Origin: an uncultured Dehalococcoidia bacterium
GTDB taxonomy: Bacteria > Chloroflexota > Dehalococcoidia > Lucifugimonadales > Lucifugimonadaceae
Length of the DNA: 64,000 nucleotides
Assembly (NCBI GenBank): GCA_958295935.1
Contig: OY282385.1
Coordinates: 124,001 to 188,000, forward strand
Reading direction: 5' to 3'
The notes under the pieces were generated by a model, which was not told where the DNA came from, did no database searches, and saw only the letters and a program-made list of their open reading frames with translations. Below are positions 1 to 59,427 of this stretch, piece by piece (position 1 is the stretch's first letter; every line of letters begins with the position of its first letter). Position numbers and translations under genes: made by a program.

Positions 1-1425
1 CCCGATGGGATTTTCACGCCCGCGGCCGAACCGCAGCCCTCGCCCTCGCCGCAATCTGGCGCCGCCTCGCCCACGGCAGCATCCACGCCTTCTCCGACGC
101 CGCTCGCGACTGCGACCCAAGAGGAGAAGGCCGTGCGGGTAATGGAGAGCATGTTCGACGTTAACAATCGCGTCAACGTCGGCGCTATCGCGTCCGCCGG
201 TCTCACAGGGCATCCCGGTCTTGTACCCGTGCTCGTGGAGGCGGCGTCCCGAACGTTCGATTTTGAAACTGCGCTTGTCATCGCCGACGCTCTTGAAAGG
301 ATTACAGGCGAGCGCGTGGGCGGCGACTTTGTGCTAGTTGCGCCGTGGTTCAGCTGGATGGCGCAGCAGGACGACCTGCCCGAACTGCCTGGGTTCGGCG
401 CCTGGAAGGGCGAGAGCTACGGCGCTATCGACCCTTCTTTCCGCGATTTCTTCTATGAGGGCGTGCCTCACACCATCCCGTTATGGTCGCCGATGTGGGG
501 GGGCGTCAGGAGGGACGGCATACCGCCTCTGGAGTATCCCGAAACGATACCCGCCTCGGAGGCCGGATACCTCGAACCGGATGAGCCGGTCTTTGGGGTA
601 GTGATTAACGGAGAGGCAAGGGCGTATCCCTGGCGCATCATGGGCTGGCATGAACTAGCGAACGACGTCGTGGGAGGGAGGAACATCTCGGTCGTGTTCT
701 GAACGCTTTGCGGCCTGGGCATCGTGTACGACGCCGAGTTCGACGACAAGGTTTGGTCGTTCGGCACCTCCGGATGGCTATGGCAAAGCAACAAGCTGAT
801 GTACGACCGCTTTACCAACACGCTCTGGCATTCGCTGACCGGGGAGCCGGTCATTGGAGAGCTCGCGGGCTCAGATTTACGGCCGCCGATGCTGCCGGTC
901 ACGGTACTGAACTGGGAGGAATGGGTCGCCAGATACCCGGACTCCACGGTGTTGTCTCTCGATACCGGGCATCGCCGCACTTACAACGCGCCCGGTCAAC
1001 CGGGGTCTGCGTATAACGACTACTTCAGTTCCCCAGGCAAGATGTTCCCCACCTTCGCGGAGGACGAGAGATTGCCCTTCAAGGATCGCGTGTTGGGACT
1101 TTCTTTCGGGGACGTTGCCAGGGCGTACCCGGTCGAGGTCGTTACCGCGCGCCGAGTCATCAACGATCAGGTGGGGAGCCAGGCGGCGCTGTTGGTCGGC
1201 GTTCCGGGCGCGGGCGCGGTTCGCGTATTCGACCCGCAAGGCAACACCTTCACGCCCGGCAAGGATACCCGCGAGGTAGTTGATCAGGATGGCGGGGTGT
1301 GGCTCATAGAGGAAGATGGATTGGTCAGCGCCGACGGATCCCTCAGATTGCCCAGGCTGCCTGCCCGCGAGCTGTTCTGGTTCGCCTGGACAGCCTTCTT
1401 CCCACATACGGAACTTTACCCATAG
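1..1425 (+). CDS. DUF3179 family protein, probable selenoprotein (5' truncated by window edge)
   Basis: The reading frame is open from the window edge and is interrupted once, by TGA at 700-702, before the true TAG stop. It starts inside a Pro/Ser/Thr/Ala-rich linker like those that follow a lipoprotein signal in this genome, so the missing N terminus is probably an export signal. The DUF3179 core runs from the [12 protein letters not shown] segment to the end. Family members usually carry a CPLCG-type motif after the NDVVGG segment; here the frame reads VVF-TGA-TLCG, so the TGA sits on the first Cys and gives a UxxC pair. Downstream sequence ([17 protein letters not shown], the [12 protein letters not shown] segment) is well conserved with the second copy at 57719-59248, which argues against decay. 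A SECIS-like hairpin follows the TGA. The biochemical function of DUF3179 is unknown to me. Counting from the window edge the Sec is codon 234. Confidence 0.85.
715..738 (+). promoter_or_regulatory. Bacterial SECIS-like hairpin of the DUF3179 gene
   Basis: The mRNA folds into a stem of eight pairs with two single mismatches (G717/G736 and A721/C732) closed by a four-base loop UGUA at 725-728. The loop starts 22 nt after the TGA and has G in its second position. Bacterial SECIS consensus models ask for a short apical loop with a G among its first two bases, about 16-37 nt downstream of the UGA, so the geometry fits. Folding was done by eye. Confidence 0.7.
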
Positions 1426-57718: not shown

Positions 57719-59248
57719 TCAGTTCGGCGCGTACAACGTGGTTTCGGGGTGGAAGGCGTACCAGGCCGACCAGAACGCGTGCACGCCGCTGAGCCGGCTC
57801 AATCTGACTGAAGGGTCATCATTCCTGATCAGATGCGACTCGCTGGCCGTCCACGCATTGCCCGCGTGGTCCTCCACCGAAGCCGAGGTTGAACCGAATC
57901 GAAAGTTATACTCACCCCTCTCGTACGCCCGCACCGCGCCGCTATGGGGATCTACCGAAATTACCACCGGCTTGCCGCCAATGCGGCCGTTGAGAACGCG
58001 GGCCGTCCAAAGGTCGTACACCTGCCAGGCGCGGGCCGCCCCCTTGATCTTCAGCCCGAAAACAGGCGTCTTGGGCGGCAGACGTTCGTCGGTCCTGAAC
58101 ACCGGGAACATCAGAGCCGGACTCGTCCCGTAGCCGCCGTAGGGCGCTTCCGGGTCCAGCGGGTTCCTGTAGTTGCGTACGAATCCCGTGTCGATGGAAA
58201 GCACCGTGGTGTCGGGGTGCTTTTCCTTCCACGCAGACCACGTGGAAAGAACAACCGGCAGGCGCGGCAGGCTAATCCCGCTCAGAGCCAATCTGCCCAC
58301 GACCGGCTCGCCGGTCATCGAGTGCCAGAGTGACCTGGTGCCCCTGTCATACAGCAAATTGTCTCCCTGATAGAGGTAGCCGGACGTGCCAAACGTATAA
58401 GTCCTGCTGCCGATGTTCGTTGCATACATCGTCGCCGTTCCGTTGACAGGACTCACGGACAGGGAAATCCGTACCCCGCCGATAGTGTCGTTCACAACCT
58501 CATGCACGTTCAGGATGCGCAACGGAAACGCGCGGGCATCCCCGTTCACGCGAACCCCCACAACCCGATCGTTATCATCCAGGTAGTCCGCCTCTGCAGC
58601 CGCCGAGTACTCAGGTTCATCGAGGGCGGGTATGTCGAAAGGACCGACCCCTCCCCACTGGACCGCCCACGTATCCAATCGAGACGGAACGTCACGGTAG
58701 ATGAAGCGCTCCAGGCTCAGATCGAACTGGGCGAACAGCGTACCCTTCCAACGGTCGTAATCCGGTGGAGCGTTAATCTCCGGATGTTCACCCAGCCACC
58801 TGTACCAATCCGCGACCGAACGGGTGTCCCCGCCGTAATCCTCACCGGTCAGAGCCTTGAGCGCGCGGGCTACGCGGGACGCGGTTAGCGCATCCAGCGT
58901 TAGCGAGGCCGTATCGACCAACGGCATTACCAACCCGGTGTGCCCGAGCTCGCCGGCGTCGTCTATCGCTTCAAGATCGGGATTCGGGTCGAACTCAAGG
59001 TGATTGGAGTACGGCCGCTGGCTGAAGAGGTAAAAGCGGAACATCACCTGCCGCGCCGCAATATCCAGTTCTGAAGAGGCAGGCCGGGGCGTCGAGGTCG
59101 GAACTGCCGGCCTGGGAAGCAGCACGCGAGCCGGAGTCGGAACCGCCGTCGCCTGAAGAGTGTCCGGCAGGGACTCGCTCGCCGTGCAGCCCGCCAGACA
59201 AACGCTCGCCCCAAAGGCGATGACCGCAGCAATGATCGATCGAGCCAT
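57719..59248 (-). CDS. DUF3179 family lipoprotein with Ser/Asn in place of the Cys pair
   Basis: 509 residues with a lipobox (VCLAGC) and a Thr/Pro/Ala-rich linker, then a complete DUF3179 domain. It aligns end to end with the selenoprotein at 1-1425: GVRVNGDARAFPLRILNVHE and YTFGTSGYLYQG match. Where the first copy has U-T-L-C this has S-P-V-N (LSVSPVNGTATMY), so both redox residues are lost. Start taken at ATG (MARSIIAAV) with GGAGG upstream; 30 more codons are open before it. A non-redox paralogue or a structural subunit is possible. It is divergent from the ABC binding-protein gene. Confidence 0.85.
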   Translation of the reverse strand: MARSIIAAVIAFGASVCLAGCTASESLPDTLQATAVPTPARVLLPRPAVPTSTPRPASSELDIAARQVMFRFYLFSQRPYSNHLEFDPNPDLEAIDDAGELGHTGLVMPLVDTASLTLDALTASRVARALKALTGEDYGGDTRSVADWYRWLGEHPEINAPPDYDRWKGTLFAQFDLSLERFIYRDVPSRLDTWAVQWGGVGPFDIPALDEPEYSAAAEADYLDDNDRVVGVRVNGDARAFPLRILNVHEVVNDTIGGVRISLSVSPVNGTATMYATNIGSRTYTFGTSGYLYQGDNLLYDRGTRSLWHSMTGEPVVGRLALSGISLPRLPVVLSTWSAWKEKHPDTTVLSIDTGFVRNYRNPLDPEAPYGGYGTSPALMFPVFRTDERLPPKTPVFGLKIKGAARAWQVYDLWTARVLNGRIGGKPVVISVDPHSGAVRAYERGEYNFRFGSTSASVEDHAGNAWTASESHLIRNDDPSVRLSRLSGVHAFWSAWYAFHPETTLYAPN

Positions 59249-59284
59249 ATCCCTCCGCCGTGCGCCCCGCCAGAATCGCACCGG

Positions 59285-59313
59285 TTGACATTGAACTGGG
59301 GCATCGCTATTAT
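59285..59313 (+). promoter_or_regulatory. Sigma70-type promoter of the ABC importer operon
   Basis: TTGACA (59285-59290), a 17-base spacer, and TATTAT (59308-59313) form a near-consensus promoter. It points toward the binding-protein gene, giving a leader of about 105 bases. It is the best promoter seen in the window. Confidence 0.8.
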
Positions 59314-59427
59314 CGCCGAGCTTGCGGCTACAGAGCATATCTGTGGTTGAATTGTGTTCGCAGTGACAGATCTATGTACAGCGCAGCCAAGTTCACTAGT
59401 GGAACTTTGAGGTGGAGAGTCAACAGA

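Follow-up and report, generated by a model that had tools for sequence, protein, structure and literature searches.

A probable DUF3179 selenoprotein from a SAR202-type Chloroflexota order, with a predicted tandem Rieske-like fold

The in-frame TGA at positions 700-702 of the window, by which we mean the whole 64,000-nucleotide stretch of DNA analysed here, is very probably decoded as selenocysteine (Sec), a reading drawn from comparison of the gene, its relatives and the Sec machinery across genomes. The affected gene belongs to the DUF3179 family, already listed among predicted selenoproteins, and many of its relatives across a Chloroflexota order carry the same codon. The following features are involved:

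1-1425, plus strand: putative DUF3179 selenoprotein gene, an open frame with a single TGA (PF11376, E 9.7e-76) and a stop codon at 1423-1425
559-981, plus strand: predicted first Rieske-like repeat, with the UxxC (model pLDDT 94.6; Z 9.0 to NirD-type 3c0d)
649-654, plus strand: His-Glu pair of the first repeat, invariant across 64 aligned homologues
700-702, plus strand: in-frame TGA, probable Sec codon, aligned with Cys
700-711, plus strand: U-T-L-C motif, corresponding to CxxC where homologues have Cys (relatives from many phyla read CTLC or CPLC)
718-735, plus strand: SECIS-type hairpin, stem 718-724/729-735, loop UGUA at 725-728, mostly absent in Cys homologues
1063-1422, plus strand: predicted second Rieske-like repeat, without the Cys pair, homologous to the first (Z up to 7.9 to Rieske proteins)
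57719-59338, minus strand: the window's other DUF3179 gene, which has lost both Cys (SPVN) and has no internal stop (PF11376, E 6e-75)

As the initial annotation had described, the frame re-read over 1-1425 is interrupted by the one TGA and by no other internal stop. The 5' end of the gene lies 132 bases before the window start; with the upstream DNA included, the frame spans G000:C1:123830-125425 in the coordinates of the window genome, which is a single contig of 2.75 Mb, and translation from the ATG at 123869 yields a 518-residue protein. Its N-terminus carries a lipoprotein-type signal (LLAAGC), followed by a low-complexity linker and then by a full DUF3179 domain, which matches positions 1-292 of the Pfam profile and scores 255 bits where 27 is the cut-off. 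This match upholds the assignment to the family, and the TGA lies at the first Cys of its CxxC motif. NCBIfam yielded no matching DUF3179 model.

The profile search across the order covered 147 genomes and found DUF3179 in 90 of them; among the matches listed, 90 contained exactly one TGA, one contained a TAA and none a TAG. In an alignment of 96 domains, drawn from 60 extra loci across the order together with the search loci, 63 carried a TGA, every one of them in a single column, and the remaining residues in that column were Cys (30), Ser (2) and Trp (1). With single TGAs so predominant over TAA and TAG, and with one column for all those examined, the TGA is not a product of chance, and homologues do carry Cys at the site. 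The named relatives matched by the window protein are mostly Dehalococcoidia, SAR202 cluster bacteria included, and point to a SAR202-type Chloroflexota as the probable source of the window. Sec forms in named genomes occur in Dehalococcoidia/SAR202 and also in Poribacteria, in one Acidobacteria and in one Verrucomicrobiales assembly; Cys forms are spread over many phyla in the same scan. In 400 genomes sampled from the phylum, Sec forms were in the minority once the order itself was set aside. The DUF3179 tree requires at least eight changes between Sec and Cys. A Sec-type gene on a contig labelled Actinomycetes (L171) is nested in the Dehalococcoidia clade of this tree and is probably misbinned.

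All four components of the decoding apparatus, selA, selB, selC and selD, were found in the window genome. SelA scored 429 bits, the first of eight SelA-profile matches being the only one taken as SelA; SelB scored 337 bits, above the cut-off; and a tRNA-Sec with a UCA anticodon is present. The selD gene (L034, G000:C1:970798-971724) itself contains an in-frame TGA and probably encodes a selenoprotein in its own right. Across the order, selB was found in 134 of the 147 genomes, and seven DUF3179 genomes were without it in the profile search. Four of these seven have a true UCA tRNA-Sec, and fragmentation of the assemblies probably explains why selB escaped detection there. Both selB and tRNA-Sec are missing from G031 and G042, whose DUF3179 genes have no TGA and show CPLC and SPIS at the motif. 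G090 has TGA copies of DUF3179, yet neither selB nor tRNA-Sec was found in it; as the assembly lies in 620 contigs, this absence probably reflects missing sequence.

A hairpin with a UGUA loop was proposed to begin 22 nt after the TGA, with G as the second loop base, and it is present at that place. In the window copy the stem has six pairs and one A.C mismatch, at a position that is paired in the other 17 members of the clade, and the hairpin belongs to the minimum-energy fold (-13.3 kcal/mol over 46 nt). Its folding energy is no better than that of shuffled sequences (z -0.01), so the hairpin is not detectable by energy alone; covariation, however, does show it. Within the window clade of 18 orthologous sequences, four of the seven stem pairs have both partners changed, and none of the 500 shuffles or of the slid versions reaches the observed covariation score. 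Of 71 UGA sites, among which the site of one genome figures twice, 66 have a strong in-register stem (score at least 15); control sets made by exchanging codons between sequences within each alignment column average 9.3 such sites and never exceed 14. Among non-TGA homologues, 4 of 36 have a strong in-register stem, and none was seen in the UGA register of the three CTLC relatives L145, L146 and L149. No Rfam family matched at the DUF3179 or selA loci.

Read with the standard code, genes of the window type would end prematurely at the TGA, and the codon might be taken as a true stop, or as the mark of a pseudogene or a sequencing error, giving a truncated protein. Nothing specific favours this reading, beyond the existence of broken copies in other genomes: L243 and L247 (G185) have additional TGAs or broken frames and are themselves sequencing errors or pseudogenes. 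Against it, dozens of genomes have the TGA in the same column, the 3' half of the gene is conserved beyond it, TAA and TAG are almost absent and the hairpins covary, so that comparison across genomes refutes it for practical purposes and leaves it barely conceivable. A genome-wide reassignment of TGA, for example to Gly or Trp, has even less to commend it. The distant Gracilibacteria homologue L213 does carry several in-frame TGAs at apparent Gly positions, reflecting a different genetic code rather than Sec and setting a trap for automatic Sec searches; in the order studied here, however, each DUF3179 gene has one TGA, in the Cys column only, other frames in the window and genome close at TGA, and the UCA tRNA-Sec is accompanied by selA, selB and selD, which together refute reassignment. 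The original proposal, Sec in place of the first CxxC cysteine, is thus sustained by Cys in homologues, by the SECIS-type hairpin and by the full Sec machinery; of the refuting findings foreseen in the initial annotation, none that was open to test was encountered.

The window gene is not alone in its genome, where the profile search found four DUF3179 copies. The second Sec copy, at 1,970 kb, has its TGA at the same residue (U-P-L-C) and the fourth copy has WAVS at the motif; from the motifs UTLC, UPLC, SPVN and WAVS, the set comprises two Sec copies and two copies that have lost both cysteines. Conservation of the downstream domain with the second window copy, advanced in the initial annotation, holds at 43% identity (domain at 57731-58564, minus strand), but with both Cys lost (S-P-V-N) this copy cannot show Cys at the TGA site, and the support is weaker than had been implied. 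The same gene retains the His-Glu pair and is possibly a non-redox paralogue. Elsewhere, genomes of family f1, such as G175 and G177, have up to 11 DUF3179 matches each, Sec and non-Sec mixed, in a lineage-specific expansion, and a CVLC copy adjoining a Sec copy (L244, G010:C1:1855791-1856714) keeps a SECIS-like stem in register, perhaps as the result of a recent Sec-to-Cys change.

PDB sequence searches returned no real relative, and the view of the fold of the window protein comes from structure modelling. The model of window positions 262-1422 (387 residues) has a pLDDT of 93.7, and comparing the profiles of its two halves shows them to be homologous (probability 99.4%, E 5.5e-21). Nearly all the structure matches listed by VIA have the Rieske fold, with Z up to 9.0, a value obtained with the first repeat modelled alone, and Foldseek E above 0.001; as Z values of 7 to 9 may reflect a common arrangement alone, the relation to the Rieske fold is likely but not proven. 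No thioredoxin-fold chains are among the matches listed, which does not exclude a thioredoxin fold. Across 64 homologues, invariant Cys or His occurs only at H130, U/C147 and C150 (model numbering), and the CxH...CxxH ligands of the Rieske 2Fe-2S cluster are not conserved among them. The modelled DUF3179 domain is likely to consist of two Rieske-like beta domains in tandem, lacking iron-sulphur ligands.

Replacement of Cys by Sec is typical of redox catalysis. From its motif and sparse neighbourhood evidence, the window protein is probably an exported selenol/thiol oxidoreductase. SelB bound to the hairpin just past the UGA would deliver Sec-tRNA(Sec), Sec would be inserted at 700-702, and the product would be an exported, lipid-anchored selenoprotein whose first domain, with its U-x-x-C and invariant His-Glu pair, acts outside the cytoplasm. 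The selenol may attack the substrate, the second Cys then resolving the selenyl-sulphide, and re-reduction may proceed through a CcdA/DsbD-type membrane thiol carrier, perhaps via a thioredoxin-like partner. DsbD/CcdA-type genes lie near DUF3179 at four loci, all in other lineages, and, few as they are, agree with a thiol-redox role. Neighbourhood comparison revealed no conserved partner and no conserved redox gene beside the window gene, which is followed by lepA; across the order, the neighbour clusters are mostly unrelated genes or shadow frames, and one neighbour of thioredoxin-like appearance was rejected as mainly a Crp-type regulator. The invariant His, Sec/Cys and Cys could together form a metal site, making the protein a metal-handling lipoprotein, with UGA still read as Sec and the U-x-x-C and His-Glu pair binding metal in place of redox chemistry. 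This is unlikely, given the redox bias of Sec-for-Cys replacement and the thiol-redox neighbours in some lineages. Returning to the oxidoreductase reading, a broader proposal, that DUF3179 is a new redox architecture combining a duplicated Rieske-like fold, no iron-sulphur ligands and a UxxC with His-Glu, and forms a major part of the exported selenoproteome in this marine Chloroflexota order, is tentative and falls somewhat short of probable.

The selenoprotein family itself is not new, contrary to the initial annotation: 'DUF3179 domain-containing protein, pfam11376, UxxC/T' stands in the selenoprotein tables of two reviews (PMC9312934, 2022; PMC13188914, 2026), both of which count it among high-confidence predicted selenoproteins and credit Zhang and Gladyshev (2007, NAR 35:4952). 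DUF3179 is not named in the GOS paper, whose OS_HP1 (UxxC) probably corresponds to this family, by elimination only. The literature searched, in which three papers mention DUF3179, gave no description of the DUF3179 fold or of SAR202 selenoproteins; within it, the wide multi-copy use of Sec DUF3179 in a SAR202-type order, the eight or more Sec/Cys switches and the predicted tandem Rieske-like model without cluster ligands seem to be new. An uncharacterised table entry thereby becomes a well-supported, widespread family, found in marine bacteria that are mostly uncultured; its Sec and Cys forms are aligned, its SECIS is conserved and its structure is modelled with confidence. The co-occurrence of Sec, Cys, Ser and Trp paralogues offers ready material on what Sec contributes.

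With the known DUF3179 selenoproteins (PMC9312934, PMC13188914), the window gene shares the Pfam family, Sec at the first UxxC position and a prediction made by comparison only. The predicted beta fold of each half resembles that of Rieske-fold proteins, in particular NirD-type small subunits (3c0d, 2jo6) and Rieske ferredoxins, from which DUF3179 differs in its tandem duplication and in having a UxxC pair and His-Glu where CxH...CxxH is not conserved. With thioredoxin-like UxxC selenoproteins it has in common the UxxC motif and a probable thiol-redox role, whereas its predicted fold is Rieske-like in the matches found. The source of the DUF3179 selenoprotein described by Zhang and Gladyshev in 2007 is reportedly a deltaproteobacterial worm symbiont; by contrast, many genomes of the Chloroflexota order studied here hold at least two Sec copies, and UTLC, UPLC and CxxC forms occur side by side in the order.
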